From a virus: a stretch of DNA of 60,412 nucleotides. Both the position numbers and the translations under genes were made by a program. Under the pieces are notes generated by a model, which worked only from the letters and a program-made list of their open reading frames with translations, was not told the DNA's origin and did no database searches. The stretch covers positions 1 to 60,412 of IMG/VR virus record IMGVR_UViG_3300034522_000052. One strand, written 5' to 3'. Positions 38,465 to 60,412 of the stretch are shown here, in pieces (the stretch's first letter is position 1; each line of letters opens with the position of its first letter).

Positions 38465-41400
38465 TGGCCAAGAAACCCGCTTATCGCGCCGGCCGTGACC
38501 AGGCCGCAACAGCCGAGAGCGTGGAGCTGCTCACCGGGCAGCGTGGCGATCGCCTTGATAAGGCAGTCACTTTCCGGGAGCTGGCGGCATTGGGGCTGTC
38601 TACGCTGCGCCCTGGTGCTGGCGGTGTTTATGTCCCGGGCAAGAACCTAGACCTTTTCCCTCCGGGCCAGATGGAGTTTCCCCACGCCCCGGTCAATGTG
38701 ATCGCCAATGGCGCATTTCATACGGTCCTGGTTGAGTGGGATCCGCCGCGGTACCGGGGGCACGCTCACGCCGAGATCTGGCGAGCGGAGAGCGACAACC
38801 AAGCCCAGGCCACCCTGGTGGGGACCTCTTCGGCCAATCTCTTCTCTGACGCCATTGGCAAGGGTGCCACGTTTTACTACTGGGTGCGCTTTGTCAACGG
38901 AAAGGATGATAGGGGCCCCTTCCAGGGCATGCAGGGCATCGTGGCGGAAACCAGTCGGGATGTGCAGGACATTCTGGACGAGTTGCAGGGCAAGATTGAA
39001 AAGAGCCATCTGGTTCAGTCGTTGCTCAACCCCATAGAGGATGTTCCTCAGCTCCAGTTGGATGTGTCGATCCTAAAGCCAAAGGTCGATGAAATCGAGG
39101 TTATCCGTCCCAAGGTCGCTGCCATCGAGGGCAAGATCCCCAGTATTGAGCAGGACATTGCGATCCTAAAGCCAAAGGTCGATGAAATCGAGGTTATCCG
39201 TCCCAAGGTCGCCGCCATCGAGGGCAAGATCCCCAGTATTGAGCAGGACATTGCGATCCTAAAGCCAAAGGTCGATGAAATCGAGGTTATCCGTCCCAAG
39301 GTCGCCGCCATCGAGGGCAAGATCCCCAGTATTGAGCAGGAGTTGGCCGGGCTGGATGAGCGCCAGAAGGTAGCTCAAGAGCTGCTGGATGATGCCCAGC
39401 AGCAACTGGGGATGTCGAGCATTGAGATCGGCCTAGTGCAGGATCGCTTGAATGCGAAGCTCGATAAGTACAAGGGTGATTTCGACTCGTTCCGCGATGC
39501 GGTGTTTGTCGTGGATCCAGAAAGCGGCAGCATCACGATGGATGCGGTCAATGCGGTGCGAGAGGAGCTTCACTCTTCCATTACTGGAGTTCAGCAGGAG
39601 CTTGATGCCGTATCAGGGCAGATCACCAGCAAGGCGGATAACGTCACGGTTGATAGCCAGGGGCAGCGCATTACCGAGGCCGAGCAGCGTATCAACGGGC
39701 TCGATGCCAGCCTGAGCCAAACCGTCACCCGGGGGGAGTTCACAGGCGAACAGCAGCGGGTCACCCAGATCGGTCAAGAGCTTGATGCGACAAAAGGGGT
39801 GCTGGCCCAGAAGGCGACACAGCAAGAGGTTGACGAGCAGGGCGAGCGGCTGGCCAACGCGGAAAGCAAGCTGACGGTACACACCGATGAGCTGAGTTCA
39901 CAGGCGCAGCGCCTTGATGGGCTGGCGGCCCAGATCACCCAGGGTGACGAGACTCTTCGGGCCAGTATCACTGAGCTGGCGCGTGTTTCGGCGGAAAGCG
40001 ATCAGGTGACCACGCAGCGGGTCAGCGGGCTCGAAGTGAGGGCGGGGGCATCAGAGGCCAAGATCCAGGCGCTCGAAGAAATCTTCGCGGATGACGGTGG
40101 TATTACTGCTGGCCGATTCGACGCCATCACGGCAGAACTCGAGCTGCAGCGAGGGAATGATGACGACAACGCATCTGCTGCGATCGATGGTGCCCTGGCC
40201 GTGGATGAGCGGGATCGGGAGACGCGGAAGGCGTTCGGGGCCATCCGTACAGAGCAGAGGGTAATCCTGACGGAGCAGCAGGCCCAGGCTCAGCGCACAG
40301 CAGACATGGAAGTGAAGTTTGAAGCGAAGGACGCTGCTACCCAAGCCAGGATCTCGTCGGTTGAGAAGGTGACCTCTGATGCAGACTCGGCGCTGGCACA
40401 GCGCATTGATAACGTCACAACGGAGTTCAAGGCGGCTGATGCTCAGGTCAATGCCGATATCCTGTCGCTGGCGCGGTCGAGCGCCGCCGCGGACGAGGCC
40501 CTGTCCTTGCGCCAGGACCAATTGGCTGCGACGTTATCGAGTGCGGCGGCAGATATTGCGGCGAACATCACGCGGGAAGAATCAGCAAGGGTTACTGCCG
40601 ATGAGGCCATCTCGAGGCGGGTGTCTGAGGTTGAAGCGCAGTTTGGCAGCGATCTCGAGGATACGAATGCGAGGCTTGCGACGGAGGAGCTGACCCGGGC
40701 GAGCCAGGGGGAAGCGCTCGCCCAGCAGATCAGCACTGTAGATGCTGCTTTCAAGGCCGCGGATACAGAGCTGTCTGCCTCCCTCGCTGAGTCGAGCAAG
40801 GCCCTGGCAGATGCCAAGCAGGCACTGGGGGAGCGTATCAGCACCATCGATGTGACGGTCGAGGAGAACGCGGCCAGCATCACCGAGCTGCAGCAGGCCG
40901 TGGTGAGCAATGAGGAGTCGCTGAGCCAGCGCCAGGACAAGCTGGAATCAGAGGTAGATGTTGGCGCCGTCAGCCAGGTTGAAGGTGCCTTGGCCGGGGA
41001 TGAACGTGACCGAGAGAACCGAAAGGCTCGCGGCGTCATTCTCCAACAGCAGAGCACGCTGGCGAATCAACAGGAGGCGCAAGCCAGGACTGTTGAGCAA
41101 CTGACCGCTGAGTTTGATGCTGAGAATGCGGAGATCAGGGCGCAGATCACCAATGAGCAGTTGACCAGGGCGACGGCTGATGAGGCGCTGTCACAGCGGA
41201 TCAGTGTTGTGGATGCCGAGTTCAAGGCGGCCAATGCGGATACCAATGCCGTTATCAGCGCTCTTGAACAATCGAGCGCATCGGCTGATGAGGCGTTGTC
41301 CTTGCGCCAGGACCAATTGGCTGCGACGTTATCAAGTGCGACGGCAGATCTTGCGGCGAACATCACCCAGGAGGAATCAGCCAGGGTCACCGCAGATGAG

Positions 41401-43916: not shown

Positions 43917-43926
43917 GGTGTAGGTG

Positions 43927-44559
43927 ATGGGGAAGGGTGGCTCGAACGAAATTCAGGAGACCGAGGCTCAGAAGGCTGCGGCCAGTGTGGCCATGGAGCA
44001 GTGGGACCTCTACAAGAATGACCTGCAGCAGTACGAGGACCTCTTCATGGAGAAGGTGGATGACCTCAACAGCGAGGGGGAGTTCGACAAACTGGCAGGC
44101 ACGGCAGCGCTTGGCACTGCTCAATCCTTTGGTGAGGCGCGCGCCGGGCTGGCTGACTCCATGGCTGCCAGTGGAGTAGATCCAACCAGCGGCAGGTACC
44201 AGGAGGCGATGGAAGGACTGGCAACGGACCAAGCCCTGAGTCAGACCGATACCACTAACCGCGCACAGTCCAGCCAGCAGGACAAGCATGTTGCTGGGCT
44301 CAAGGATGTGGTGAGCATTGGCGCAGGGCAGAAGGCTGAATCGCTGGCTGGTATGGGGGATGTGGCCACAACCAGCTTGCGCAAGGCGACCAGTGATGCA
44401 CAGAGCTCTTACCAAAGCCAGCAGGCGACGGCTGGTTTGGTGGGAACCCTGGCAGGAGCTGCCACCTCGTATGGGCTGGCCAGCCTGAAAGCGCCGGCTG
44501 CAACGGAGATCAAGAAAATCAGCCCGACAGCATCCGTGCTGCAGGGCAAGGGTTACTAA
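43927..44559 (+). CDS. Internal virion protein candidate (210 aa)
   Basis: EAQKAAASVAMEQWDLYKND, a helical middle and a Gly/Ala C-terminal segment (ATAGLVGTLAGAATSYGLAS). Ser/Gln/Ala-rich composition and position fit an ejected internal protein. Confidence 0.6.
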   Translation: MGKGGSNEIQETEAQKAAASVAMEQWDLYKNDLQQYEDLFMEKVDDLNSEGEFDKLAGTAALGTAQSFGEARAGLADSMAASGVDPTSGRYQEAMEGLATDQALSQTDTTNRAQSSQQDKHVAGLKDVVSIGAGQKAESLAGMGDVATTSLRKATSDAQSSYQSQQATAGLVGTLAGAATSYGLASLKAPAATEIKKISPTASVLQGKGY

Positions 44560-44568
44560 GGGGGTTCC

Positions 44569-44949
44569 ATGGGTTACGCCGCAGACACTTACGCCAAAAT
44601 CACCCGAGAGCAGTACCAGGACTGGAAGACGCGCTTCTACCCCAAGCAGCAGGAGCTGATGGAGTTGGCCACCAACGGCCAGCTACTGCGGGAGCAACTG
44701 GGGCGGGTGGATGAGAACAACGCCAACGCGCTCCGCTCAGCTCAGCAGGCTACGGCCAACCGCAATGCGCGGATGGGGCTGGGCACCAGCAGCAATGCCA
44801 ATGATAACAGCCAGGGGCTGCGCATGGCGCTGATGACGGCAGGCACCGAGAACGGCCTGCGTGAACAGGAGCGGACCCGGCAAATGGGGATCCTGACCGG
44901 CGCGGATGCGGGGCTGCGTGAGGCAATTAAAACCGGAGGGGGTGTGTGA
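44569..44949 (+). CDS. Internal virion protein candidate (126 aa)
   Basis: MGYAADTYAKITREQYQDWK, a helical middle rich in Asn/Ala (NARMGLGTSSNANDNSQGLR). Ribosome site AAGGGGG. Belongs with its neighbours to a row of small helical proteins; function inferred from context only. Confidence 0.55.
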   Translation: MGYAADTYAKITREQYQDWKTRFYPKQQELMELATNGQLLREQLGRVDENNANALRSAQQATANRNARMGLGTSSNANDNSQGLRMALMTAGTENGLREQERTRQMGILTGADAGLREAIKTGGGV

Positions 44950-45206
44950 TGGGGTACGGCATTTTGGATATCGGCGGTCAGACTCGCCAGCAAGGTCTGG
45001 CAGGCCTGCGCGATGCGGCCAACCGAGAGTCGGAGATGGAGGCTGCCAACAAGAGTCTCAAGACCGCTCGCAAGGGGCAAACCCTGAGCACCATCGGTAC
45101 TGGCGCATCGATGGGCGCCATGTTGGGCATGGCGGGTTCACTCGGTGGCCCTCTGGGCGCACTGGCAGGTGCTGGGGTTGGTTTTCTGGCAGACAGCTTG
45201 TTTTAA
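44949..45206 (+). CDS. Glycine-rich small ejection-type protein (85 aa)
   Basis: ATG overlaps the previous stop (TGATG). Polar first half; second half is a membrane-active Gly/Ala stretch (TGASMGAMLGMAGSLGGPLG, ALAGAGVGFLADSLF) with GxxxG spacing, as in proteins forming the DNA-ejection channel. Confidence 0.6.
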   Translation: MGYGILDIGGQTRQQGLAGLRDAANRESEMEAANKSLKTARKGQTLSTIGTGASMGAMLGMAGSLGGPLGALAGAGVGFLADSLF

Positions 45207-45212
45207 GGAGGC

Positions 45213-46835
45213 ATGATGAGCGTATCGGGATTGGCGGAAGGTTTTCTGGCTGGCTTCAACACCATGGACCGCTACCAGCGGGGCCAGAAAGAGGACGCTC
45301 GGCAAGAGCGCGAGTTGGGGCTGCGCGATGCAATGGTGAAGCAGAACAAGGAGAACTCAGATCGCGACTTCTCTCTTCGGAAGGCCACTTTTGACAACTC
45401 GGTTGAGCAACAGAAAACAGCCAAGGAGCAATGGGGGCAGGAGTTTGACCTCAAAAAGAAAGAGGCGGGTAGCCTGCGGGATTACCGCAATGCCAACTTG
45501 GTGCTCGCTCAGGCTGCGGAGGGGAGGGCCAAACAAGAGAGTGACTGGCTGGTAAGTGAGAGAGTAAACCAAAAGCTTCTTGAGGATAGCCTGCCATTGA
45601 TTGACTCTGCATTCCAAGCGAGATTAAGGGGCGAGGCGGATCCGGCAGGGTATGTTGACCTGATGAAGAACAAGGAGTTCCAGAAGGGCGGAGCCCTCTA
45701 CCGGTTCAATTTTGACCGATACAGTGATAATCAGCACCTTCAGGACGCTCGGCAAATCGTGCCGCAAATTTCTGGCCTGATGAAGGATATCGACTCTGGG
45801 AAATTGAGTTGGGAAAATGAGGATGATCAGCGAGCCATTGTCCAACGCATCAACTCGTCGAAAATAATTGGCCCATTAAATACCATCTTGGAGCAGGAGG
45901 TTAAGCGCGGTATTGGCGAGGTCGATGCGGCATCTGGTAAAAAAATCACAGATAAAGAGCTGACGCATGTCATTCCAACTCAAGATGGGCGCGGTGTCAT
46001 GTATGGACTGAAGGTAACTTATGCTGACGGCAGCACTGCTGATAGCGTAGTGACCGAAGGTCGAAGCACGCAGCCAGGCGATCCGGTTAAAGTCTCAAAA
46101 TGGGGGGATCTGATAAAGACGGTGTACCAGCGTAGCCAGATGTACCATCAGCTTAGTGGGGCAGGGCAAAACCGCGAGACACTAAACCGTGTTGGTCAGA
46201 ACCTTGGCTTAGCCCAACAAGCTGACTTGAAAGGTCATAAGCAGGCGAGTGTTGACTTGATCAAGGAGCTCAACAAAAACGTAGCAAAAGTTCTCTCCAG
46301 TGATGCAGTGGGCAGTCTGGAAGAGAGGCAAGCACAAGCCAAACAACTACTCGCAAGTTACGAAGAAAACCAAGCCAAAATAGACAGCATCTATGGCGTC
46401 AGCAATGGTGCAGCGCCGGATGAATCATCTGGTGTCAATCCTGAGCAGTGGAGCCAGGGCAACCCTGAACGCCAGCAGTTTATGAGGGAGGCTGAGCAGG
46501 GGGGGTGGCTTGGCAGCTATCTTGAAAGCCCGGAAAAAATGGACGGTGCCTTTGCGTTATGGCGCCAAGCTGTTGCGAAAGAGGAGGCAGCCAAGCAAGC
46601 GGCGGCATCTGCTGAGAGGATTCGTGAAATTGAAGGGCCGAAAGAACCACAGCGGCCTAGCATTGCGCAAGCCAGACAGCTGGCGAGCGCCAATATGGCC
46701 ACAGGTTCAGGAAAACCGCCCCAGCCATACGGCAAACCAGTTGACGTCATGGGTTTAATCAAGGCTCACAACCAAAGTAACGCTGACAAGCAGGCTTCTG
46801 ACGGTTACGGATTGTACCAGCATGGTTACAAGTAA
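45213..46835 (+). CDS. Internal virion protein (540 aa)
   Basis: Almost entirely helical. MSVSGLAEGFLAGFNTMDRY, RQERELGLRDAMVKQNKENS, a central beta patch (DGRGVMYGLKVTYADGSTAD) and a Gln/Ala-rich C-terminus. AAGGAGG upstream. Position before the giant protein suggests a large ejection protein. GC content drops in 45450-46400. Confidence 0.65.
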   Translation: MMSVSGLAEGFLAGFNTMDRYQRGQKEDARQERELGLRDAMVKQNKENSDRDFSLRKATFDNSVEQQKTAKEQWGQEFDLKKKEAGSLRDYRNANLVLAQAAEGRAKQESDWLVSERVNQKLLEDSLPLIDSAFQARLRGEADPAGYVDLMKNKEFQKGGALYRFNFDRYSDNQHLQDARQIVPQISGLMKDIDSGKLSWENEDDQRAIVQRINSSKIIGPLNTILEQEVKRGIGEVDAASGKKITDKELTHVIPTQDGRGVMYGLKVTYADGSTADSVVTEGRSTQPGDPVKVSKWGDLIKTVYQRSQMYHQLSGAGQNRETLNRVGQNLGLAQQADLKGHKQASVDLIKELNKNVAKVLSSDAVGSLEERQAQAKQLLASYEENQAKIDSIYGVSNGAAPDESSGVNPEQWSQGNPERQQFMREAEQGGWLGSYLESPEKMDGAFALWRQAVAKEEAAKQAAASAERIREIEGPKEPQRPSIAQARQLASANMATGSGKPPQPYGKPVDVMGLIKAHNQSNADKQASDGYGLYQHGYK

Positions 46836-46921: not shown

Positions 46922-47155
46922 TTATTTATCCTGGTTGCCGCTCATTGCGTCATCGAAGAGTTTGTTGATGACCGCCTTAATCTCTTCGTAGCTGGCTTGT
47001 TGAGGGGTGTCCCCACGATTAATCGCGTCTTGGAGTATCTGCACGATTTCCGAGTTCATTGATCGGCCATTCTTCCTCGCGCGCTCCTGAATTTTAATTT
47101 TTAAATCATCAGGCAACCTGACTCCAAGCGGGGCGATATTGCTTGCTCCTTTCAT
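46922..47155 (-). CDS. Mnt/Arc-type ribbon-helix-helix repressor, cassette 1
   Basis: 77 residues. GVRLPDDLKIKIQERARKNG and RSMNSEIVQILQDAI are the Arc-family strand-helix-helix core, with a C-terminal helix extension as in Mnt. Divergent from the Arc-like gene at 47266; three palindromic operators lie between. By analogy with P22 immI it should repress the antirepressor transcript in the lysogen. Confidence 0.88.
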   Translation of the reverse strand: MKGASNIAPLGVRLPDDLKIKIQERARKNGRSMNSEIVQILQDAINRGDTPQQASYEEIKAVINKLFDDAMSGNQDK

Positions 47156-47180
47156 GCGTGACCTCTGGCAAAAAAAATAT

Positions 47181-47251
47181 CTACATAATGTAGCAATTTC
47201 TCACTTGACTGAATAGCTACATGATGTAGAGTTTGTGTCTACATGGTGTAG
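47181..47251. promoter_or_regulatory. Three operator palindromes, cassette 1
   Basis: CTACATAATGTAG (47181-47193), CTACATGATGTAG (47217-47229) and CTACATGGTGTAG (47239-47251). They fill the gap between the divergent ribbon-helix-helix genes. A plus-strand promoter with TTGACT at 47205-47210 would place its -10 in or next to the second operator. Confidence 0.85.
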
Positions 47252-47265
47252 GTATTGGAGCGACG

Positions 47266-47421
47266 ATGAAGACGAGCAGCATCCCGCCATTTGGCGTTCG
47301 GATGGAAAAAGAACTGAAAGACTTGCTGGCCAAGCAGGCAAGGAAAAATGGGAGATCTCTTAACTCTGAAGTGGTCCAGATCCTGAAAGAGGCACTTAAG
47401 TATGAAGAGAAAGATGTGTGA
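47266..47421 (+). CDS. Arc-like repressor, cassette 1 (51 aa)
   Basis: MKTSSIPPFGVRMEKELKDL, LAKQARKNGRSLNSEVVQIL: a minimal Arc protein (P22 Arc has 53 residues). First gene of the rightward antirepressor transcript, so it should limit its own expression as Arc does. ATG behind TTGGAG. Confidence 0.88.
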   Translation: MKTSSIPPFGVRMEKELKDLLAKQARKNGRSLNSEVVQILKEALKYEEKDV

Positions 47422-47435
47422 GGGTGTAAATGGCT

Positions 47436-47465
47436 CGGCCCCGGCGGGTGCAACCGCCAAGGCCG
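47436..47465 (+). promoter_or_regulatory. Conserved two-part hairpin before antirepressor 1
   Basis: CGGCC, 2 bases, GGCGG, 6-base loop, CCGCC, 2 bases, GGCCG. It lies 15 bases after the Arc-like stop. The same 5-2-5-6-5-2-5 layout occurs in cassette 2 at the same distance, with a paired change inside the inner stem. Confidence 0.8.
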
Positions 47466-47500
47466 AAGGATGTAAATCAAACCAAGTTGAGGACCTGTGT

Positions 47501-48298
47501 ATGAATTTACACGAGAAGTGTAACGCTTCTGATACTGACAGCCAAGTGGCGCTGATCCCGGTTAACCAGAGCCAGGTCGGTGATGATCTGGTGCAGACCG
47601 TCAATGCTCGCGAGCTTCATGCCTTTCTGGAGGTTGGGAAGGTGTTTGCCGCCTGGATCCAAGAGCGCATAGAGCAGTTTGGCTTCGTTGAAAATCAAGA
47701 CTTTATAGTTATTTCCGAAACTGGAAAAAACCCTAAAGGTGGGCGACCTAGCAAGGAATACTTCCTCGCACTGGACATGGCCAAAGAACTGTCCATGGTT
47801 GAGCGCAACGCGAAGGGGAAGCAGGCTCGCCAATACTTTATCCAGTGCGAGCGCGTGGCAAAGTCACCGAACAACAACCCCATGCTGGTCGCTTCCACCA
47901 TGAATAGCGATCAACTGGCCCTGTTGATGGGGGAGGTTAAGCGGCGTGAAGCGGTGCAGCGTGAGCGAGACGAGGCGATCCGCACCAAGGCTTGCATCTC
48001 CAGCAGCCGAGAGGCGTCCGTAATGGCCAAGCTGGGCCATACCAAACGTGAGAACGAAGCGCTCAAAGAGCAATTGGGAGTTGGCACCAAGCACAAGAGC
48101 GTGAAGGGTGCAGGGCTGGAGCAGTTCTATATCGATGAGGGTGGCAACCGACGCCAGACCGCCAACCGGCTCAAGAAGATTGCGCTGGAGATGGGATTGG
48201 CTGGCGACATCATCGACATTGAAGACCCTAACTACGGCACGGTGAAGGCGTATCCGGTCAGTGTGATAGAGCGTTTCAAGCTGGAGGTGGCGGCATGA
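47501..48298 (+). CDS. AntA/AntB-type antirepressor, cassette 1
   Basis: 265 residues from ATG 47501 with GAGGA upstream. Residues 25-105 form the AntA/AntB N-domain (QTVNARELHAFLEVGKVFAA, GRPSKEYFLALDMAKELSMV, NAKGKQARQYFIQCER). The C-terminus (GAGLEQFYIDEGGNRRQTAN...) is a second small domain. Should bind and inactivate the CI-type repressor or a related one. The upstream frame through the hairpin is open but is probably leader. Confidence 0.87.
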   Translation: MNLHEKCNASDTDSQVALIPVNQSQVGDDLVQTVNARELHAFLEVGKVFAAWIQERIEQFGFVENQDFIVISETGKNPKGGRPSKEYFLALDMAKELSMVERNAKGKQARQYFIQCERVAKSPNNNPMLVASTMNSDQLALLMGEVKRREAVQRERDEAIRTKACISSSREASVMAKLGHTKRENEALKEQLGVGTKHKSVKGAGLEQFYIDEGGNRRQTANRLKKIALEMGLAGDIIDIEDPNYGTVKAYPVSVIERFKLEVAA

Positions 48299-48438
48299 GT
48301 GCAACCCAACTGCAAGACGAGCTGACCGCCTTGCTCGGCGATCTGGATGCTATTGACCTGACCCCAGAGGATCGCAGGCTGATTGCCAATCGGATTGAGC
48401 GCATGATGCCGGTTGAATATTCACCCGCCCAGCGTTAG
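48295..48438 (+). CDS. 47-residue helical peptide following antirepressor 1
   Basis: MSATQLQDELTALLGDLDAI, DLTPEDRRLIANRIERMMP. ATGA overlap with the antirepressor gene. Clearly related to the peptide at 59698 in cassette 2 and less closely to the one at 59957. Late promoter D overlaps its end. Confidence 0.75.
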   Translation: MSATQLQDELTALLGDLDAIDLTPEDRRLIANRIERMMPVEYSPAQR

Positions 48439-48441
48439 CAT
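48413..48441 (+). promoter_or_regulatory. Late promoter unit D
   Basis: TTGAAT, 17 bp, TAGCAT, with CCCAGCGT before the -10. It overlaps the last codons and stop of the 47-residue peptide gene. Start predicted near 48448; reads into the giant virion gene. Confidence 0.7.
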
Positions 48442-48485
48442 CTCTCCATCGTCGGTCAGTCTGCATGCTGATCGCCCCATCTCAA

Positions 48486-48520
48486 AAGCCCCGAACGGTT
48501 CGCCGCTCGGGGCTTTTCTT
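48486..48520 (+). terminator. Hairpin terminator after late promoter D
   Basis: AAGCCCCGA/TCGGGGCTT with a 12-base loop and a TTCTTTT tail, about 40 bases after the predicted start. Confidence 0.78.
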
Positions 48521-48544
48521 TTGAATACAGCCGAGGCCACTCGA

Positions 48545-51500
48545 ATGGACAAGTACAGTCTCCGTGACGCATCCCTGCCACAACCGCTGCAATCTGACTC
48601 TCGAGGAAAGCAGTTCTGGGATGGCATCAACAGTCAGCTTTCATCACCGCCCGCAGCTGCGGCCCCAAAGCGAGACCTCGACACAGAATGGAGCGATTAT
48701 CCCAAGGCGGTAGGCGCTGGCGCGTTGGAGCTGGTCGGTGGCATTGGTGAGTTAGCGCGGGGCGTGATAAGTCACGGGAAAGAGAATGGGGGGAAGACTG
48801 CTTGGGGGAATGTTGCCTCTGCGATCACCCCCTTGATGAAAGGGGTTGCGGCAACAGGGGATTTAGCTCAATCCGGCGCGGATGCCTTGAACGAGAGTAT
48901 GAGTGCTGACGCCAAGGAGGCACTGGGACGCCGACTGGTCGATGAAACGCCAGAAGGCCGGTTGACCCTGGGGGATGGCGCAGGGGATATCGATGTCTGG
49001 GCGATGAAAATGGCGCAGGGCGTTGGCTCTTTGCTACCGACACTCGCCGCTGGCGGGGTGACTGGGGTGGCCGCCAAAGCCTCTATCGGCCGGGCTGTCA
49101 CTGCATCCATGGTCAAGCGTGGCGCGACCCAGGAGGTAGCCGAAGCGGTTGCCGCCAAGGCCGTGTCCAAAATTGCCACCGGCGCCGCCGTCACCACTGG
49201 TGCGACCGGGTCAGTCGGCAGTGCGGGGGTGAACACTCGTGACACCGTGCTGGGCATGAGCTTTGATGAGCTTTCCCGCAGCGATACCTTCCGCCAGGCA
49301 TTCACCCGCATCGACCAGGATCAGCAGACGCAACACCTCTCTGATGAGGAAAAGCTGTCGTTGGCCCGGGAGGAGACTGCCAATGTTGCCAGCCGAGCCA
49401 CCATGAGCGACGCCAAGGTGTGGGGCGCGGCGGCTGTCGGTTCCATGATGGGCGATGCCATGCTGTTCAAGATGCTGGCTGGCAAGGCGGCCACCGGTGG
49501 AGTGCTGAAAGGTGCTGCCAAGGGGGCGGCAGGTGAGGGTATCAGCGAAACCCTGGAGGAGGGGGTGCAGCAATACGCTGTCAACGAATCCCTCAACGAG
49601 GTGGCCGCCGCTGATATCGACCCGATGAAGGGGGTCATGTCGAGCGCGATCGAGGGCGGCTTGATAGGGATGGGGGCAGGTGGTGCGGTAGGTGCTGTCG
49701 GTGGGGCGCGAGGCGGTAAGCATGCCAGCCAGGAAGATGGCGTTGGGACCGATCCGGTTTCAGAACCTTCCGCGCCGGTGACGGAGGGCGCTGCTGGTCC
49801 GGCAGTGGATCCGAACTTTGCATCTGCTCCACTGGAAGACGGCGAGCAGGCGCCCTCCTCCTCGCAGGCCGAGGGGGAGCTGAATCCGCTCGGCCCCAGC
49901 GCCAGCCAGTTTGACGAGCTGCGTGATGTGCCGGCCTATCTGCGTCAAGACGATACCGCCGATCGTTTCAAGGGGATGGCGCAGGATAGCGACGTTCAGC
50001 GAGCCTTGGCCGGTGAGTACGGGAGGTCAGTGCAGGAGCTGGTTGCTTCCCAGATGCAGGCTGGCGATCAGGGCAAGAGTCTTTATGAGCGAGCTCAGGC
50101 TGGTGAGCTTGGGCTTGACCCGTTCGCAGGCAACAAGAGCGCCCAGCAGGTAGCCATGGAGAACCAGCGCCTAGCCCTGCCGCTCAAGGATGTGATCTTT
50201 GCGGGCGATGCCAATGCTAAACCCAAGGGGGAGGCAGTGGCAGCACCTGGGGATCACGATGACCAACAGGCTGGCCCCGGCCCGCAATTCCGAGGTGGTG
50301 AGCGTACCCGCTGGCAGAGCGGGCAGGAGGGGGATGTGTTGCCGCCAGAGGCATCTTCCACCAAGCCCGCTGGCGAGCTGCCGGGCGCGGTGATTGAGGG
50401 TGAGGCCCGCGAGGTGGGTAACGAGTTGCCGCACCGCAATGTGGTCTATGGCAATGACTTGCGCGCCGAGCAGCAACGGGCCGCCGATCTGGCCCGCCGT
50501 GAGCGCGAGCTGAACAACCAGCCCCTGCAGATCGGTCAGTCAGAGACCCTCTTTGCCGGGGGCACACCGGGCGCTGACCCGCGCAATAGCGCCTATACCC
50601 CGCCCAGGCTGTCACGGGATCAGGTCGATACCAGCATGGGCGAGCAGTCCACCCGCGATCCGCGCAGCCCGGTGGCGCAGTCCATCGAGCAGGCAGGCAG
50701 CGCCACCGATTCGGTATTTGGCCCGCTCAAGTCGTTGCGCATCACCCGCAAAGGCAAGCCGTTCGCAACCGAGAAAGAGGCTGCCATGGCCAGCCGCAAG
50801 GGCCAGGAGATGCCGGTGCCGCTCAATGGTGGCGGCTTTGGGGTAGCGGCTATCGGTGAGGTGCAACAGGCCCAAGCGCAGCAGGGCGCAGTCAAGCAAC
50901 CGTCAAGCAATTCGGCCCAGCAGGATCGCCAAGACGGAAAGACTGAGATCGCGCAAAATGGCATGGTGATCGTTCATGGTTCCGGCAATCCAGGCATGAG
51001 CGAGCAGGATATTCAGATTGTCCGCGCAAGTGGTCAGAAGCAGGGCAAAAAGGGCCGTGTCTATGGTGGCTTCTATGGCACCAGCGAGCAGGACGCGCAC
51101 CAAGCGCAAGCCTACGCCGATATGATGGGCGGCACGCCCACCCTGTACGATGTCAAGATTAAGCCTGGCACCAAGGTGTTGCACAAGCAGGGGGATATTA
51201 CCCGCCTTTCTGAAAGCTACATCAACGAGTTGGTGAGTCAGGGATATGGTGTGGTCACCGGCACCGACCCGCGCGGCCAGACAGAGCATGTAGTTATCGA
51301 CAAAAGCGCCGTAGCAAGCATGGCCCCGCGCGGCGCGCAAGCAACCCCGTCCCAAGTCAACGACACGAATGTCGCTGACATAAGGCAACCATCTGATCAG
51401 CCAGCTGCAAGCGTAAGCGCTGAAACAGTTCCGGCACCGTCTGCCACAGCGGGCGAGGCCAGCCAATTAGTACCAGCTATCGATACCGGCTACCGGGATG

Positions 51501-54500
51501 TTATCCCTTCCAGCGAACAATCCGAGGTGACCCATGGCCAGCCTACCCCGATACCTGCAATCAGCAGTGAGCGACCAGGTGATCAGCCTGGAGCAGGCGA
51601 TCCGGTTGCAACAGGTGTTGGACAAACCACTGCCGAACTCGCGGAGCGAGCTGGACCCGGAGATCCGGCAGATGGTGCTCCTCTTACACCTTTACCTGTC
51701 ACCCAACCAGGAGAGGAAAATGCACTGACAGCCCCGGCACCTGCCGGGGTTGCTGTATCTGAAGGGGGGCAACCTGAGCAAGCCCGCGCGACTGCTGGGC
51801 CAGCGGCAGCGCCGACACCCTGGTCGGGGATGATCGATAACCCTGACGGCACCATCACCCTGGAAGGGGAAGTGGCGGCCCTCAAGTCGTGGGCGAAGGA
51901 TAACGGCGTGAAGGCGATCCCGGGCAAGGGTGGCCTGGTAGTGTCCACGACTTCGGTAGCTAAGGTGCGACAGCTCACCACGCCTGCCACCAGTGAACCG
52001 GTGCGGCAGATTGAAGCGGCCCGCGCCGAGATAGCGCCGGAGCCCACCGAAGCACAGAAGGAAGCGGGGAACTACAAGAAGGGGCACATCAAGCTGCAGG
52101 GGCTGGACATTGCGCTCGAGAACCCCAAAGGCTCTACCAGATCAGGTACCGATCAGGATGGCAGGGCGTGGCATTCAACCATGGCCCATGACTACGGCTA
52201 CATCAAACGCACCCTGGGGGCGGACGGTGATCATGTCGATGTGTTCATCGGTGACAAGCCAGATAGCGAGACGGTCTATGTGGTTGACCAGGTTGACCCC
52301 AAAACCGGCAAGTTTGACGAACACAAGGTGATGATGGGCTTTTCCGATGAGCAGGCCGCCCGGGAAGGCTACCTTGGCAACTACGAGGCGGGCTGGAAAG
52401 GACTGGGTGCCATCAAGGCGATGCCGGTGGAATCGTTCAAGCGCTGGGTGAAGGAGGGGGATACCACCAAGCCAGTCGCCAAGAAAGTCCGCATGTCTCA
52501 GCAGCGGGAGGGACTGTCCGCTGACGATGTGGCTCAGATTGTTTCTGACTTTAGACGTGAGTATAAAGGGGCTCAGTCACTCGACTTTATTGTTGGTCAA
52601 ACTCAAGAGGACCTTTATGGACCAGAAGGCGGCCCCGAGCAAATTGGATGGCGGGATGGGGGATACCTCCCCGGCAAGCAGCAAGTCCACCTCATCGCAG
52701 ACAGCATCACCCGCAGAGCCGGGCGTCAGGGTGTTCACGAAGGCGCAGGGGGAGAAAGAGGGGTATCTGGAGATCCCCGTCTTTTACAGCAGAACAGACC
52801 TGCGCCACGAAATGAACAGGGTATGGGAGGAGTTGAAAGAGCAAAAGCGGAAGTCGTCTCTACGTTACGTCATGAGGTCCTGGGTCACTATGGCCTGGAC
52901 ACGTTTACGCCTGAAAATAAGCGAGCTCTCCTCCAAAAGCTGAGTGATGCCAAAAGTGAGAAATGGCTTGCTCCTGCCTGGTCAGAAATCTCCCGCCCGG
53001 AGATGTATGGCGATAAAAGTGAGCAGCACCAGGCGGAAGAGGTGTTTGCCCACCTTACTGAAAACGAGTTGCCACCCCGTGCCATTCAAGCCTGGAACGA
53101 TATCAAGACCGAGTTCTCCCGCATGTTGCGCAAGACTGGCTTGGTGAAAGGCCCCATTAAAGAGCATGAGCTGGACAGCCTTATCAAGGCGGTTGGTAAA
53201 GGCATTCGCAGTGGAGAGCGCACCAAGCAGAACATCCGCAGCGATCAGGAGGTGATCGGCAAACAAGCCGATGAGCCAGCCAAGGATGACAAGCCCGAGC
53301 GCATCATCCGCTTCTCAAAGCAGGCAATGGCACAAGGGGACAAGCCGGCCAAGCACCTGACCCGTAAAGAGGTTGAGCTGGTTTCCCATGGTTGGTTCAA
53401 GCAGTACCGGGGGGCGAGCGGCATCAAGGTACAGATCCACGCCACCCAAGCAGAGCTTGAAGGGGCCCTGGGGCTGGATGCCAAGGACGGATTGATCCGT
53501 CGCGCGGCGTTTGACGACGATGCAGGCACTCTCCATGTGGCTGCCGACACCATCTCCGACCCCAAGCGGATGCGCGAGATCCTGCGCCATGAGGTGCTGG
53601 CCCACTACGGCCTGGCCAACGTCCTGGGTGATGGGGAATACACCAAGCTGATGAGCCGTCTCATCCAGTCGCAGAAGGACCCCAGCATGAAGCCGGTGTG
53701 GGACTGGGTGAACACCCATTACGCCGATGAGGACATCGGCACCCAAGCCGAGGAAGTGGTGGCCCACCTCGCCGAAGTCGAGCAGGGGGCCTGGGGCCGT
53801 GGCTGGGATCGGGTTGTGGCCATGGTCACCCGGGCGCTGCGCGCCGTTGGCTTCGTGCCGGATGGCATCACTGCTGCTGAGACCCGTTCCCTTATCGAAG
53901 GACTGGGTAAGCAGTTGCAGCGAACTGGACAGGATGACGGAGGCTCAGGCGGCAAGAAGTTCAGCCAAGAGGCCGAGCGGCCAGCCAATGATGGCGGCAT
54001 CAAGATGAGCCAGAGTATTGCTGATAACAGCCCTTCCCTTGAGCAATCCATCACGCAAAAGGCGAAATACCAAGCCGGCGCGGCGCTTGGCTCGGTGAAG
54101 AACTACATCAAGCAGAAACGCCCGGTGATGCTTGGCACCTTGACGGACCTGCAAATTGATCAGGTATACCGCGACATAACCGGCGGGGCTGTGTCGGAAT
54201 ACCAGCGCCTGCGCACTCAGATGGAGGCTGATCGTAACGACATCCTGCTGGATGCTGAAACCCGGATCGACCCGCTGTGGGATGCGCTGGACAAGCAGGT
54301 GAAGACGGCTCTTTCCAACCTGATGCACGATGCCACCATGACCCGCTTGCACCCTGACAAGTCACTCGATGAGAACAGCTACTACCTGGAGGCCAAACAG
54401 AAGGTAGAACGAGCCAAGAAACCGGAGACCAAAGCAGCCTATGAAGCAGAGCTTCACATCATCGAGCGCAATCACTCCGAGCTGGCCAGGCAGTACAACG

Positions 54501-56782
54501 CGCTGCCAGCCAATGCCAAGGCTCTCTACGACACCATGCAGGACACCTACACCAAGCAATGGGAATCCCTGCGTGGTGCGATTGAGCAGCGACTGGAGGA
54601 TTTGCTAGGTGTAAACCAAGGGCGTGCCATGGCTGCCGAGATGCGCCAGAAGATGGAGCACGCCCTGCAGCATGGCCCTTACTTCCCGCTGACCCGCTAC
54701 GGCGACTACGTGGTTAAGGCTCGCAAGGGGGACGAGTACGTTCGCGAGCACTTTGAGCGACGAGCCGACGCCGAACAGGCGGTTAAGCAGTACCAGCGTG
54801 ACGGTTACAACGCGGTGATGACGGTCAAAGAGGAGGGCGGTGGCGATAGCGCCAACGCGAACCAGCTCGGCATGGAGATGCTGAGCTTCCTCGATAGCGC
54901 CGATGGGGTCAGTAAGAGCGCCTTGAAAGACGAGATATGGCAGGCGATGCTGCGCATGATGCCGGATGCCTCCTACGCCAAGCATGCTATTCACCGCCGT
55001 CGGGTGAAGGGGGCCAGCCGAGATGCACACCGAGCCTACCTCAACAGCGTCTACCACTATGCCCGCCACGTATCCAAGATCCGCTATGGCCACAAGATGC
55101 AGGGGGAGCTGGACAAGCTGAGCGAGCAGATCCGGGCTGGTGTCGCAGGTGAACCAAGCAGCCTCAAGCCTGAAGACCTGGAGATAGCTCAGCAGGTGCT
55201 CAATGAGATGAACAAGCGCCATGACCTGAACATGAACCCGACCGGCAAGGCGTGGGCGGGTTCTGCCGGTAATATCGGCTTTCTCTACTACATCGGCCCA
55301 TCGGTTGCCTCTGCTGTGGTCAACATGACCCAGAACTTCACCGTGATGCTGCCCCAGCTGGGGGCCAAATATGGTTTTGCGAAGTCTGCTGCCGCCATGA
55401 CCCAGGCGCTGGGGGATTATGTGAAGCACGGTAAATTCAAGGCTGGCACTACCGAAGCGTGGCACTCACTGACGCGCTCTACCACGTTGCCAGCGGATGA
55501 GCGGGCCATCCTGGATAGGCTTTACCGTGCAGGGGCGCTGGATCTCACCCAGGCGCACAGCATTGCTGCCAAGGCTGACACCGACCAGCAAGATGCCAAG
55601 CCGATGGGGAAACGCTGGCGCCGAGCCATGCGCTGGGCGGGGGCCACCTTCCACAACGCCGAGGTGCTCAACCGTGAGGTGGCGGCCCTGGCCGCCTACC
55701 GTTTGCTCAAGCAGGCGGAGCCGACGCTCAATGGCCAGCAATACGCTGACCGGGTGGCTGAAATGGTGTATGACGGCCACGGCAACTACGCCGCCAGCAA
55801 CCGACCACGCTACATGCGCAACGACATCACCAAGGTGCTGACCCAGTTCAAGATCTACAGCCAGATGATGACCTACGTCCTTTACTCCAATGCCATCAAG
55901 GCAGCCAAGGGCGACAAGGTGGCGCAGAAGACGCTTGCCGGCGTGTTGGCAACGCACTGGGTGATGGCAGGGGTGATGGGATTGCCGACACCAATCACCG
56001 CCGTCGTTTATGCGATAGCAGCAGGGCTGGACGACGACGATGACCGCAGCGGTGAAGCGTCATTCCGCCTGGCACTGACCGAGGCGCTCGGGCCCCGCGC
56101 CGGGGAGCTGCTAGCCAAAGGGCCGATGGATGCCTTGACCAATCTCAGCATTGCCGGCCGTACCGGGCTGGGCGATCTGTGGTGGCGTAGCCCCAAGGAG
56201 GGCACCGAAGGGGACGATCTGGCATGGCACGCTGTTCAGCAACTGCTGGGCCCGGTTGCCGGGATTGGCATAAACCTGGCGCGGGGCGCGGGGCAGATGA
56301 CGGATGGCCACATTCAGCGCGGACTGGAAACTATGTTGCCCAAGTCGATTCGCGACGTTGCCAAGTCCTATCGCCAAGCGACAGAAGGGGAGCAGACCAT
56401 TAAAGGCGACATCATCATGGATGATGTTTCGACCTGGAACGTCGCCATGCAGGGGCTGGGTTTCGGTAGCGCCCAAATGGCCAAGAATTACGACGCCCGC
56501 GAATACATCAAAGGCAAGGAGAAACGCATCGCGGATAAGCGCTCCCAGTTGCTGACCGACTATTACATGGCCCGCAAAAGTGGTGAGATGGACGAGGTGC
56601 AAGAGGTACTGGAGCGCATCAAAATGTTCAATTCCATCAACCACCCTCGCGAGCGCATCACCGGCAAGAGCTTGGCGTTGTCGTTTAAGTCAAAGCTTCG
56701 CAGCAACGAGCGCACTCAGGGCGGGGTATACCTCAATCGCAACCGCGAATACCTGAGAGAGGAGGGGCGCTTCGCCGATTAA
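48545..56782 (+). CDS. Giant polyvalent virion protein (2745 aa)
   Basis: Start ATG 48545; the open frame before it crosses the terminator. Residues 1-420 are Ala/Gly-rich and membrane-active (SIGRAVTASMVKRGATQEVA). About 805-930 resemble an ADP-ribosyltransferase-like fold (MVIVHGSGN, RVYGGFYGTSEQDAHQAQAY). About 1170-1310 are the pyrophosphatase-like polyvalent domain (KGHIKLQGLDIALENPKGST). Zincin motifs HEVLGH (about 1442) and HEVLAH (about 1681) follow. The last 650 residues include an LPD38-type region. Such proteins are ejected into the host with the DNA. Confidence 0.85.
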   Translation: MDKYSLRDASLPQPLQSDSRGKQFWDGINSQLSSPPAAAAPKRDLDTEWSDYPKAVGAGALELVGGIGELARGVISHGKENGGKTAWGNVASAITPLMKGVAATGDLAQSGADALNESMSADAKEALGRRLVDETPEGRLTLGDGAGDIDVWAMKMAQGVGSLLPTLAAGGVTGVAAKASIGRAVTASMVKRGATQEVAEAVAAKAVSKIATGAAVTTGATGSVGSAGVNTRDTVLGMSFDELSRSDTFRQAFTRIDQDQQTQHLSDEEKLSLAREETANVASRATMSDAKVWGAAAVGSMMGDAMLFKMLAGKAATGGVLKGAAKGAAGEGISETLEEGVQQYAVNESLNEVAAADIDPMKGVMSSAIEGGLIGMGAGGAVGAVGGARGGKHASQEDGVGTDPVSEPSAPVTEGAAGPAVDPNFASAPLEDGEQAPSSSQAEGELNPLGPSASQFDELRDVPAYLRQDDTADRFKGMAQDSDVQRALAGEYGRSVQELVASQMQAGDQGKSLYERAQAGELGLDPFAGNKSAQQVAMENQRLALPLKDVIFAGDANAKPKGEAVAAPGDHDDQQAGPGPQFRGGERTRWQSGQEGDVLPPEASSTKPAGELPGAVIEGEAREVGNELPHRNVVYGNDLRAEQQRAADLARRERELNNQPLQIGQSETLFAGGTPGADPRNSAYTPPRLSRDQVDTSMGEQSTRDPRSPVAQSIEQAGSATDSVFGPLKSLRITRKGKPFATEKEAAMASRKGQEMPVPLNGGGFGVAAIGEVQQAQAQQGAVKQPSSNSAQQDRQDGKTEIAQNGMVIVHGSGNPGMSEQDIQIVRASGQKQGKKGRVYGGFYGTSEQDAHQAQAYADMMGGTPTLYDVKIKPGTKVLHKQGDITRLSESYINELVSQGYGVVTGTDPRGQTEHVVIDKSAVASMAPRGAQATPSQVNDTNVADIRQPSDQPAASVSAETVPAPSATAGEASQLVPAIDTGYRDVIPSSEQSEVTHGQPTPIPAISSERPGDQPGAGDPVATGVGQTTAELAERAGPGDPADGAPLTPLPVTQPGEENALTAPAPAGVAVSEGGQPEQARATAGPAAAPTPWSGMIDNPDGTITLEGEVAALKSWAKDNGVKAIPGKGGLVVSTTSVAKVRQLTTPATSEPVRQIEAARAEIAPEPTEAQKEAGNYKKGHIKLQGLDIALENPKGSTRSGTDQDGRAWHSTMAHDYGYIKRTLGADGDHVDVFIGDKPDSETVYVVDQVDPKTGKFDEHKVMMGFSDEQAAREGYLGNYEAGWKGLGAIKAMPVESFKRWVKEGDTTKPVAKKVRMSQQREGLSADDVAQIVSDFRREYKGAQSLDFIVGQTQEDLYGPEGGPEQIGWRDGGYLPGKQQVHLIADSITRRAGRQGVHEGAGGERGVSGDPRLLQQNRPAPRNEQGMGGVERAKAEVVSTLRHEVLGHYGLDTFTPENKRALLQKLSDAKSEKWLAPAWSEISRPEMYGDKSEQHQAEEVFAHLTENELPPRAIQAWNDIKTEFSRMLRKTGLVKGPIKEHELDSLIKAVGKGIRSGERTKQNIRSDQEVIGKQADEPAKDDKPERIIRFSKQAMAQGDKPAKHLTRKEVELVSHGWFKQYRGASGIKVQIHATQAELEGALGLDAKDGLIRRAAFDDDAGTLHVAADTISDPKRMREILRHEVLAHYGLANVLGDGEYTKLMSRLIQSQKDPSMKPVWDWVNTHYADEDIGTQAEEVVAHLAEVEQGAWGRGWDRVVAMVTRALRAVGFVPDGITAAETRSLIEGLGKQLQRTGQDDGGSGGKKFSQEAERPANDGGIKMSQSIADNSPSLEQSITQKAKYQAGAALGSVKNYIKQKRPVMLGTLTDLQIDQVYRDITGGAVSEYQRLRTQMEADRNDILLDAETRIDPLWDALDKQVKTALSNLMHDATMTRLHPDKSLDENSYYLEAKQKVERAKKPETKAAYEAELHIIERNHSELARQYNALPANAKALYDTMQDTYTKQWESLRGAIEQRLEDLLGVNQGRAMAAEMRQKMEHALQHGPYFPLTRYGDYVVKARKGDEYVREHFERRADAEQAVKQYQRDGYNAVMTVKEEGGGDSANANQLGMEMLSFLDSADGVSKSALKDEIWQAMLRMMPDASYAKHAIHRRRVKGASRDAHRAYLNSVYHYARHVSKIRYGHKMQGELDKLSEQIRAGVAGEPSSLKPEDLEIAQQVLNEMNKRHDLNMNPTGKAWAGSAGNIGFLYYIGPSVASAVVNMTQNFTVMLPQLGAKYGFAKSAAAMTQALGDYVKHGKFKAGTTEAWHSLTRSTTLPADERAILDRLYRAGALDLTQAHSIAAKADTDQQDAKPMGKRWRRAMRWAGATFHNAEVLNREVAALAAYRLLKQAEPTLNGQQYADRVAEMVYDGHGNYAASNRPRYMRNDITKVLTQFKIYSQMMTYVLYSNAIKAAKGDKVAQKTLAGVLATHWVMAGVMGLPTPITAVVYAIAAGLDDDDDRSGEASFRLALTEALGPRAGELLAKGPMDALTNLSIAGRTGLGDLWWRSPKEGTEGDDLAWHAVQQLLGPVAGIGINLARGAGQMTDGHIQRGLETMLPKSIRDVAKSYRQATEGEQTIKGDIIMDDVSTWNVAMQGLGFGSAQMAKNYDAREYIKGKEKRIADKRSQLLTDYYMARKSGEMDEVQEVLERIKMFNSINHPRERITGKSLALSFKSKLRSNERTQGGVYLNRNREYLREEGRFAD

Positions 56783-56844: not shown

Positions 56845-57030
56845 ATGACGGTGAGAGAGTGTGTCGAAGGAATTCAAGAGGTGCTATGGTTTCTGGCTGG
56901 CCGCATTATGGAGGGGGTGGCAATGGGGTTTATCATCGCCTGCCTGATCGGTAGCACAGACACCTTCTTGGGGGTGTGGATCATCACCGGCGCCATGTTC
57001 GCGATGTTTGGGCGGCACTGGAGGGGATAA
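56845..57030 (+). CDS. Small two-span membrane protein (61 aa)
   Basis: Two hydrophobic segments, FLAGRIMEGVAMGFIIACLI and FLGVWIITGAMFAMFG. GGGAGCGAG upstream of ATG. Convergent with the membrane protein on the other strand, 3 bp apart. Possibly superinfection exclusion; not proven. Confidence 0.6.
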   Translation: MTVRECVEGIQEVLWFLAGRIMEGVAMGFIIACLIGSTDTFLGVWIITGAMFAMFGRHWRG

Positions 57031-57033
57031 GCA

Positions 57034-57792
57034 TTATTTGTCATTGGGTTTTCTATTAATGAACAACAAGGCAGCCACGCCACCAAGAGCGGCCCACTGA
57101 ATCAACAACCGATGAAAGTCTATCGATACGCTGGTTCTGTTCATATTAGATGTCGGGGTCGGTGGTGTTAATATAAATGAATACCCTGCCGGAGATTCTT
57201 TTTTTGCCCTTCCCCAGTCAACTGCATACTTCCATGGCGGGATTATGCTCATCAGTATGAATGCCAGTAACAATATGTTCAGTGTTTTTTTACGAGCATC
57301 CATCACCAAAAATTTCCCTTTTAGCAACATATAAGCACCAAAAACAAGGATGATAAGCGCCGCACTTAGCCCTCCAATTATAGCCTTTTCAATAATCTTG
57401 CTAGCCCCTTGCGTAGGGGCTTGATTATTTTTAGGTGGAGTTGGCTGGTTAAATGATTCTCTTTGTTCTTCCCAAAACTCAGCCATCGAATCGCTATCTT
57501 TATCGCTTGCAACTTTCACATTGGCAATGTTGTTATTGACTATTTCCCTAGTTAAACGCTCAACCTCTCTAAATCTTTCAGATAGAGGTTTGTCGCGCCA
57601 TTCTGGATCTGCGCTAAGTTTATCATCTATCCCAATGGCTATATCTGCAACCTCACCACCCTGAGCCATCCATGACTTTAGGTCTGGATTTTTATTTAAT
57701 GCTGATTGCACCTCTGACTGCGAATCAGCACTTGCAATGGATCCAGCAGATATTAAAAATGCAAATAATAAGGCAAAAATAAAACGCATCAT
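57034..57792 (-). CDS. Membrane protein with a scaffold-like exported domain
   Basis: About 252 residues. Signal peptide (FIFALLFAFLISAGSIASA). Residues 28-86 match the phage's own scaffold-like protein (30380-31306, residues about 179-237) at 27 of 59 positions with no gap: VQ.AL...PDL.SW and KL.ADP.W..K.L.ERF. Three membrane spans follow (GGLSAALIILVFGAYMLL, LLLAFILMSII, QWAALGGVAALLF). AT-rich, alone on the minus strand: a lysogen-expressed moron is likely. Starts 57792 or 57789; ribosome site weak. Confidence 0.75.
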   Translation of the reverse strand: MMRFIFALLFAFLISAGSIASADSQSEVQSALNKNPDLKSWMAQGGEVADIAIGIDDKLSADPEWRDKPLSERFREVERLTREIVNNNIANVKVASDKDSDSMAEFWEEQRESFNQPTPPKNNQAPTQGASKIIEKAIIGGLSAALIILVFGAYMLLKGKFLVMDARKKTLNILLLAFILMSIIPPWKYAVDWGRAKKESPAGYSFILTPPTPTSNMNRTSVSIDFHRLLIQWAALGGVAALLFINRKPNDK

Positions 57793-57864
57793 ATACCAAC
57801 CATTACGCTGAAAAAAAAACATAATGCATCACTTGGACGGTGCATGTCAGTGACCATAATCACG

Positions 57865-58248
57865 TCATCTTTTCTTACTTTTCATTTCTTGCCGAATGTA
57901 GTCCAGCACTTCCTGTATTTCCTCGCGCCGAACGTAAGGGGTATAGCGAGGATCATCCTTGTCGATCTCGTGAGGCGTGAGGACAGTGCCGGGTGGCAGT
58001 GTGAGTGCGGGGCGATCGAGGTTGAGACCTTCAATGATCTTCATTCCTTCAATGATTTTCACACCACTTTCAGCAAGCGCGGTATCTTCGTCGATGGTTC
58101 GCTGGATGCGATGAACCAACTCGGCGTTCATGGATCTGCCACTTGCCTTTGCCAACTCAGAAATAGTGTCCCTCATGCCGTCAGGCAGCCTGAGTACAAA
58201 CTTGTCTGATTCCCGGCTGGTTGGAACGGTACTTTTCTTACTCATCAT
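57865..58248 (-). CDS. Mnt/Arc-type ribbon-helix-helix repressor, cassette 2
   Basis: 127 residues. KFVLRLPDGMRDTISELAKA and SGRSMNAELVHRIQRTI are the Arc-family core; the C-terminal 75 residues are an extra acidic-helical domain (PYVRREEIQEVLDYIRQEMK). Divergent from the Arc-like gene at 58404. Expected to hold the second antirepressor transcript off in the lysogen. Confidence 0.87.
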   Translation of the reverse strand: MMSKKSTVPTSRESDKFVLRLPDGMRDTISELAKASGRSMNAELVHRIQRTIDEDTALAESGVKIIEGMKIIEGLNLDRPALTLPPGTVLTPHEIDKDDPRYTPYVRREEIQEVLDYIRQEMKSKKR

Positions 58249-58403: not shown

Positions 58404-58553
58404 GTGAGGGATTGGGACAAGTTTATGGTGCGGCTGCCACCCGGCTTTCGGGAGAGAGTTAAGGAGCTGGCAAAAGAGAATGGCCGTTCGATGAATGCCG
58501 AGATCGTGCAGCGATTGAAGGAGGCGCTGAAAAATGAAGGTAAGTTGGCTTGA
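58404..58553 (+). CDS. Arc-like repressor, cassette 2 (49 aa)
   Basis: GTG start with GAGGAG eight bases upstream. DKFMVRLPPGFRERVKELAK, ENGRSMNAEIVQRLKEAL: a complete minimal ribbon-helix-helix protein. Too short for most gene finders but in the exact place of arc. Confidence 0.82.
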   Translation: MRDWDKFMVRLPPGFRERVKELAKENGRSMNAEIVQRLKEALKNEGKLA

Positions 58554-58634: not shown

Positions 58635-59456
58635 ATGACTATACAACAACAGTATCAGCAAACCAAAGTTATTGGCAGGGCCGCGAATCAGTCCATGGTC
58701 GTGCCGTTCCATGGCGACAACCTCTATCTGGTCGAGCACGATGGCGACCCCTATGTACCGATGAAGCCAGTGGTTGAGGGAATGGGGCTGGCTTGGCAGG
58801 TGCAGCATCGCAAGCTGGCAAGTAAGTTCGGCAAAGGTATCATCGAAATGGTGATCCCTTCAGCCGGTGGCAAGCAGACCATGACCTGCCTCCCCCTCCG
58901 CAAGCTACCTGCCTGGCTCTACTCGATTCAGCCGGGGAAGGTTGCCCCCGAGATCCGGGAGAAGGTGGTTGCCTATCAGGAAGAGTGTGACGAAGTGCTG
59001 TGGCAATACTGGACCACCGGTAAGGCCGATCGCCAATCCGTCAGGAAGGCTGCCAAGTCCTACTTGCCGGAATACCGTCAGGCGCGGGCGATCAAGATGA
59101 CCGCAGATGCCATTACGGTGGCGCTCTCGGTCATGCCAAACCTGAGCCAAGAGGCAAGGCAAACTGCGATGGCGACGGCCGTCAACACGGTGGTTGGTGA
59201 CAACATCCTTCCTCTTCCGGTGCTGACTGAGCGTTACTACACCGCCGGAGAGGTGGGTGAGCGGCTTGGTATCAGCGCCAACAAGGTGGGCCGCATCGCC
59301 AACGAGCACAACCTGAAAACCGAGCGATACGGGAAGTTCTTCCTGGACAAGTCCCGCAGCTCGACCAAGCAGGTGGAGACTTTCCGCTACAACGAGGCGG
59401 GGGCTGAGGCGGTTGGCGTCATCATCACTGCGCTGGAAGTTGGGGGTGCGGCATGA
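58635..59456 (+). CDS. P22AR_N-type antirepressor, cassette 2
   Basis: 273 residues with AAGGA upstream. MVVPFHGDNLYLVEHDGDPY, VPMKPVVEGMGLAWQVQHRK, LPLRKLPAWLYSIQPGKVAP and IREKVVAYQEECDEVLWQYW are the N-terminal domain of P22-like antirepressors. The C-terminal HTH-like domain is shared with the protein at 1900-2343. Should inactivate phage repressors; unrelated in sequence to the antirepressor of cassette 1. Confidence 0.9.
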   Translation: MTIQQQYQQTKVIGRAANQSMVVPFHGDNLYLVEHDGDPYVPMKPVVEGMGLAWQVQHRKLASKFGKGIIEMVIPSAGGKQTMTCLPLRKLPAWLYSIQPGKVAPEIREKVVAYQEECDEVLWQYWTTGKADRQSVRKAAKSYLPEYRQARAIKMTADAITVALSVMPNLSQEARQTAMATAVNTVVGDNILPLPVLTERYYTAGEVGERLGISANKVGRIANEHNLKTERYGKFFLDKSRSSTKQVETFRYNEAGAEAVGVIITALEVGGAA

Positions 59457-60287: not shown

Positions 60288-60316
60288 TGGTGGAGCTGGG
60301 GGGATTTGAACCCCCG
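60288..60316. other. attR: 29-bp repeat at the ssrA 3' end
   Basis: Identical to 502-530. The tmRNA T-loop and acceptor end stay intact here, so integration preserves ssrA function. Confidence 0.92.
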
Positions 60317-60412
60317 TCCAAAATTACTACATCCTCGGTACTACATGCTTAGTCACTCTTTACATTCGCCAACACGCTGCGGAGAGACACGCCACGCATT
60401 GACTAGCTCGAT
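60288..60412 (-). ncRNA. ssrA: tmRNA (ssrA), 3' part
   Basis: The minus strand shows the tmRNA 3' end: GACTAAGCATGTAGTACCG, then a TTTTGGAC lead into the T-arm and acceptor ending CAGCTCCACCA. The tag-coding part and 5' end lie outside the window. tmRNA rescues stalled ribosomes; its 3' end is a frequent phage attachment site. Confidence 0.93.

Follow-up and report, generated by a model that had tools for sequence, protein, structure and literature searches.

The sequence studied here, which we call the window, is the complete 60,412-nucleotide stretch of IMG/VR virus record IMGVR_UViG_3300034522_000052. It is a dormant virus (prophage) of an Aeromonas bacterium, and its structural region is 92% identical to that of Aeromonas phage phiARM81mr. 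On its minus strand, at positions 57034–57792, the window encodes P0001, a 252-amino-acid (aa) membrane protein with a signal peptide, three transmembrane (TM) spans, and a domain that is also found in the scaffold-like protein of the same prophage. The most likely function of P0001 is superinfection exclusion, and we judge the chances to be about even that it is a prophage exclusion factor whose scaffold-type domain serves as a periplasmic bait for the proteins ejected by a related phage.

P0001 has a domain in common with the phage scaffold

A BLASTP comparison of P0001 with the 831 stop-to-stop frames of the window returned a single match, the scaffold-like open reading frame (ORF) at 30380–31306 on the plus strand (E = 8e-10), which encodes a 308-aa protein. 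The original prediction, made from the DNA letters alone, had aligned P0001 residues 28–86 with scaffold-like residues 179–237 at 27 of 59 positions. This count proved to be exact: the alignment is ungapped at an offset of 151, where neighboring offsets give only 2–5 identities, and its Smith–Waterman score of 139 compares with 33.8 ± 5.2 (maximum 64) for 2000 shuffles. Among the PHROGs families, P0001 matches phrog_10114 (E = 1.7e-16) and phrog_479 (E = 1.8e-14), and the scaffold-like ORF corresponds to phrog_479 from end to end (8e-91). That the two proteins have a domain in common is certain.

Note that PHROGs labels phrog_479 as being of unknown function. We identify the window's member as the scaffold from its architecture and its position between the portal and the major capsid protein, directly upstream of the latter (phrog_334, 31378–32595, plus strand). 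Relatives of this scaffold are present in 33 more IMG/VR loci, and related scaffolds are known from Stx-converting and other Escherichia coli podoviruses and from Vibrio phages. The phrog_479 domain comprises about 62 helical residues with invariant L, W, D, L, and R positions, and its conserved residues include W, D, and ERF. Within the scaffold it is the best-conserved part, and most of the invariant columns of that protein lie in it. The scaffold's copy is encoded at 30908–31111 on the plus strand (within residues 177–244), and the P0001 copy at 57523–57711 on the minus strand (residues 28–90). Whereas phrog_479 scaffolds also have an acidic N-terminus, a coiled coil, and a C-terminal tail, and are encoded just before the capsid gene, P0001 has none of these features; it carries the central helical domain alone, joined to an export signal and a membrane anchor. 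As had been proposed, the P0001 gene is AT-rich (GC content of 41% versus 59% for the window). An in-frame ATG at 57822 would extend the protein from 252 to 262 aa.

Predicted topology and structure of P0001

The description of P0001 as an exported three-span protein was borne out by a signal peptide at residues 1–22 (cleavage motif ASA/DSQ) and three further hydrophobic spans at residues 138–156, about 166–186, and 227–245. The scaffold-type domain (residues ~28–90) and a linker (91–135) precede the first TM span, a loop separates the second and third, and positive charges follow the first and last. The signal peptide and the positive-inside charge distribution predict a periplasmic domain and a cytoplasmic C-terminus; this topology is a reading of hydropathy and charge rather than the output of a trained predictor. 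The original prediction also suggested that the scaffold itself might have a membrane role. We found this idea to be unsupported, because the displayed copy is exported whereas procapsids form in the cytoplasm.

AlphaFold2 modeled P0001 as a small helical domain, with predicted local distance difference test values of at least 93 at residues 31–80 and 86 at residues 81–90, followed by a remainder of low confidence. In the scaffold model, confidence peaks in the corresponding region, whose helices 187–195 and 197–212 are in exact register with residues 36–44 and 46–61 of P0001. The alignment used for the P0001 model included scaffold fragments, and this agreement is a sign of consistency and not independent proof. 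Matches to the InvH pilotin and the P22 scaffold were weak (E = 1.9 and 3.9, respectively) and were not used.

The P0001 gene lies in a sieA-like locus

We did not find the P0001 gene to be isolated, as had been claimed, because an Arc/Mnt-like repressor gene (127 aa, 57865–58248, minus strand) lies directly upstream, at a distance of 42–72 nucleotides on the same strand. From left to right, the window carries a giant gene (48413–56782, plus strand), P0001 (minus), the Arc/Mnt-like gene (minus), a small Arc-like ORF (49 aa, 58404–58553, plus) that is by position the counterpart of P22 arc, and the gene for the anti-repressor Ant (phrog_524, 58635–59456, plus). The order in phage P22 is 16 (plus), sieA (minus), mnt (minus), arc (plus), and ant (plus), and the two loci agree strand by strand. 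P0001 thus occupies a clear sieA-like locus, between the last ejection-type gene and the mnt/arc/ant module and opposed in strand to that ejection-type gene. P22 differs in having three more elements between mnt and sieA (orf59a, a terminator, and a separate promoter for sieA), whereas the window has a 61-aa membrane ORF (56845–57030, plus strand) between the giant gene and P0001. A promoter scan at P0001 gave hits at chance level.

SieA acts on ejection proteins and in this way prevents the injection of DNA. Its escape mutations map to gp16 and gp20 (PMC10883804). Like SieA, P0001 appears from hydropathy and charge alone to be a multi-span inner-membrane protein, and expression from the prophage would be expected for both. 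SieA, however, lacks a scaffold-type domain, and exclusion is proven for SieA whereas for P0001 it is a proposal. Membership of P0001 in the SieA family by sequence was considered and rejected, because there is no similarity to P22 SieA.

Envelope proteins appear to be exchanged at the P0001 position. The end regions of four related loci (L084, L085, L086, and L094) encode there a secreted protein of 115–119 aa with Asn/Ser/Thr-rich repeats, L087 encodes a multi-span membrane protein of 321 aa whose start is GYF-like, and L070 encodes another secreted protein. We looked for mimicry of virion proteins in three other exported proteins from this spot and found none. Relatives also carry other small membrane ORFs after the giant gene, at the position of the 61-aa ORF.

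The domain recurs in other exported proteins

P0001 was compared with 35 related records and profile searches of genomes were then conducted, for a total of about 1300 genomes and records; a check of other prophages for the same pairing had been suggested in the original prediction. The domain does recur with export signals and with different membrane anchors. P0001 itself occurs in two records, the window and a near-identical copy in G001. At the P0001 position, G024 and G030 instead encode a different protein, a lipoprotein of 225–226 aa whose C-terminal ~62 residues are the domain, and two further records (G045 and G046) carry the same lipoprotein. The remaining relatives have unrelated exported proteins at this spot or none. 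Further examples come from three other prophages. In G502, from Aeromonadaceae, a domain lipoprotein is encoded beside an Arc-like gene; in G035, from Citrobacter braakii, another is encoded in the early region; and in the enterobacterial G370, the gene for a secreted form is flanked by two late genes. Each of these three also holds a domain-bearing scaffold, as does every prophage case for which enough sequence is available. Across the entire collection, the domain was found only in scaffolds and exported proteins.

No match was obtained when plasmids were searched with P0001 or when E. coli genomes were searched with the Citrobacter lipoprotein gene. A 195-aa match in G292 was set aside as a scaffold remnant rather than a displayed form, and a 3597-aa giant ORF has a weak internal match (E = 0.008).

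Origin and selection of the displayed copies

In a tree built from 62 alignment columns, the displayed copies formed one clade in 0% of 200 bootstrap trees, although the branches are long and the well-supported forks would be compatible with a single origin. The P0001 domain falls near the scaffolds of L118 and L125 (50% identity) and is 44% identical to that of its own prophage. Its weakly supported grouping with L118 and L125, away from its own scaffold, makes a recent origin from the resident gene improbable.

Purifying selection acts on the lipoprotein genes. The ratio of nonsynonymous to synonymous substitution rates (dN/dS) is 0.04–0.13 for the domain between clearly distinct copies; for the N-terminal part it is 0.06 where an estimate of dS was possible. 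These values pertain to the lipoprotein form, as P0001 is represented by only two near-identical copies.

Other features of the window

The giant ORF encodes 2789 aa and is assigned as a polyvalent protein because it has InPase and LPD39 domains and a DarB-like C-terminal half. Packaging and injection have been proposed for this class of protein (PMC5512222) and are predicted for the giant protein. Three virion genes at 43924–46835 on the plus strand (phrog_611, phrog_596, and phrog_601) are candidates for ejection proteins on the basis of gene order and conservation. Between phrog_601 and the giant gene is a second arc/ant-like module (46925–48298), composed of an Arc-like ORF (46925–47200, minus strand) and an AntA-type antirepressor gene (47402–48298, plus strand); the secreted scaffold-domain protein of G370 occupies the corresponding spot.

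The gene for the tail tip protein (1697 aa) has internal repeats at 40373–41458. By eye, the right edge of the window (60290–60412) resembles the 3′ part of a transfer-messenger RNA, which suggests integration at ssrA, and ARAGORN reported nothing in this truncated piece. In phiARM81mr (L002), the nearest named phage, an annotated retron-type reverse transcriptase (26819–28105) is inserted amid the late structural genes.

A possible bait mechanism and its alternatives

In the mechanism we propose, P0001 would be exported and held in the inner membrane so as to present its domain in the periplasm. We infer, simply from its being better conserved than any other part of the scaffold, that during procapsid assembly the domain holds cargo, namely the ejection proteins and possibly the giant polyvalent protein. 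When a related phage then ejects these proteins into the periplasm, the displayed copy would bind the same partner, and either conduit assembly or DNA entry would be stopped. The P22 scaffold is thought to be necessary for the incorporation of gp16 and gp20, and ejection proteins have been proposed to dock at the scaffold's column (PMC12005531). A block to superinfecting phage was among the roles offered in the original prediction, and it has since gained support from the synteny with P22 sieA and from the recurrence of the domain in other prophages, joined to export signals and different membrane anchors.

HK97 gp15 is another prophage inner-membrane superinfection-exclusion protein, which acts on genome injection in a manner linked to the tape measure protein. 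Its target is a long-tailed phage, and it is not known to contain a scaffold-type domain. Another parallel, in published mechanism and with no homology claimed, is the lipoprotein Ltp of Streptococcus phage TP-J34, which binds the tape measure protein of an incoming phage and thereby excludes it (PMC3952083). Like P0001, Ltp is an exported, membrane-anchored prophage protein located outside the cytoplasm, but it belongs to a siphophage of Gram-positive bacteria and its bait is not known to be scaffold-derived.

Several observations weigh against the bait proposal. P0001 and P22 SieA are not homologous by BLASTP (E = 7.7 across 10 residues), P0001 matched no PADLOC model, and the domain gave nothing significant in the PDB (sequence and fold) or BFVD (fold). 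The candidate ejection module, like all the other virion modules, is present in every one of the eight phages compared, such that no partner was singled out, and the E-values of this presence/absence search are inflated by self-training. The grouping of P0001 with L118 and L125 is poorly supported (94/55) and involves a long branch. Moreover, 2 of 40 genomes from one bacterial family encode chromosomal lipoproteins with a divergent domain and no prophage nearby (G815, contig C1:879335–880048; G1203, contig C44:28100–28714). These copies are sporadic in their family, and their N-terminal part has a CM..GW motif in common with the prophage lipoproteins. Because of these two genuine exceptions, the domain is not borne by prophages alone, and its exclusive link to phages is weakened.

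The chromosomal lipoproteins and their shared motif favor an explanation that we consider unlikely but deserving of weight, which is that the domain is a generic helical interaction module with several unrelated roles, used by P0001 and the lipoproteins for an envelope or lysogenic-conversion function that has nothing to do with phage entry. A generic domain with no specific link had been named in advance as the outcome of profile searches that would, together with no effect on infection, refute the original prediction. Apart from the two chromosomal cases, however, the searches mostly pointed the other way: no Pfam or NCBIfam family matched P0001 or its domain above the cut-off, all remaining occurrences of the domain are in scaffolds or exported proteins, almost always in prophages that also carry the scaffold form, and P0001 sits at a sieA locus. 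That locus would suit an exclusion factor that works through its membrane part, with the scaffold-type domain merely a spacer or oligomerization piece, given that P22 SieA excludes without such a domain and that unrelated exported proteins without it hold the same spot in other prophages. We regard this as improbable, because the lipoprotein forms have the domain and not the three-span membrane part, and because the invariant residues of the domain are kept across wide divergence.

Two further explanations seem very improbable. If P0001 tethered procapsid assembly or scaffold partners to the membrane during the prophage's own lytic growth, a domain in common with the scaffold would be expected, and proheads of some other phages do form at the membrane; but the signal peptide and charges put the domain in the periplasm, the gene is absent from most relatives including phiARM81mr, and it is oriented with the repressor side and against the late genes. 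A similarly small chance attaches to a chance fusion or a decaying, functionless duplicate. The gene is AT-rich, rare, and found in only two records, yet it is intact in both, its domain was probably not copied recently from the resident scaffold, and other displayed forms exist, of which the lipoprotein is under purifying selection.

Proteins that exclude phages by blocking injection are known. In the literature searched, we found no prior description of scaffold-derived exclusion. We suggest tentatively, and with somewhat less than even confidence, that prophages have made the cargo-docking domain of the scaffold into a periplasmic bait for incoming ejection proteins, perhaps more than once independently and with different anchors. 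If so, the docking domain of the scaffold would be named in a group to which Stx-converting phages belong, and the target of exclusion would reveal the scaffold's binding partner. Both the assembly contact and exclusion could then be tested using one small soluble domain. As a general principle, ejection proteins would be stopped at the next host through the very contact that had loaded them into the head.
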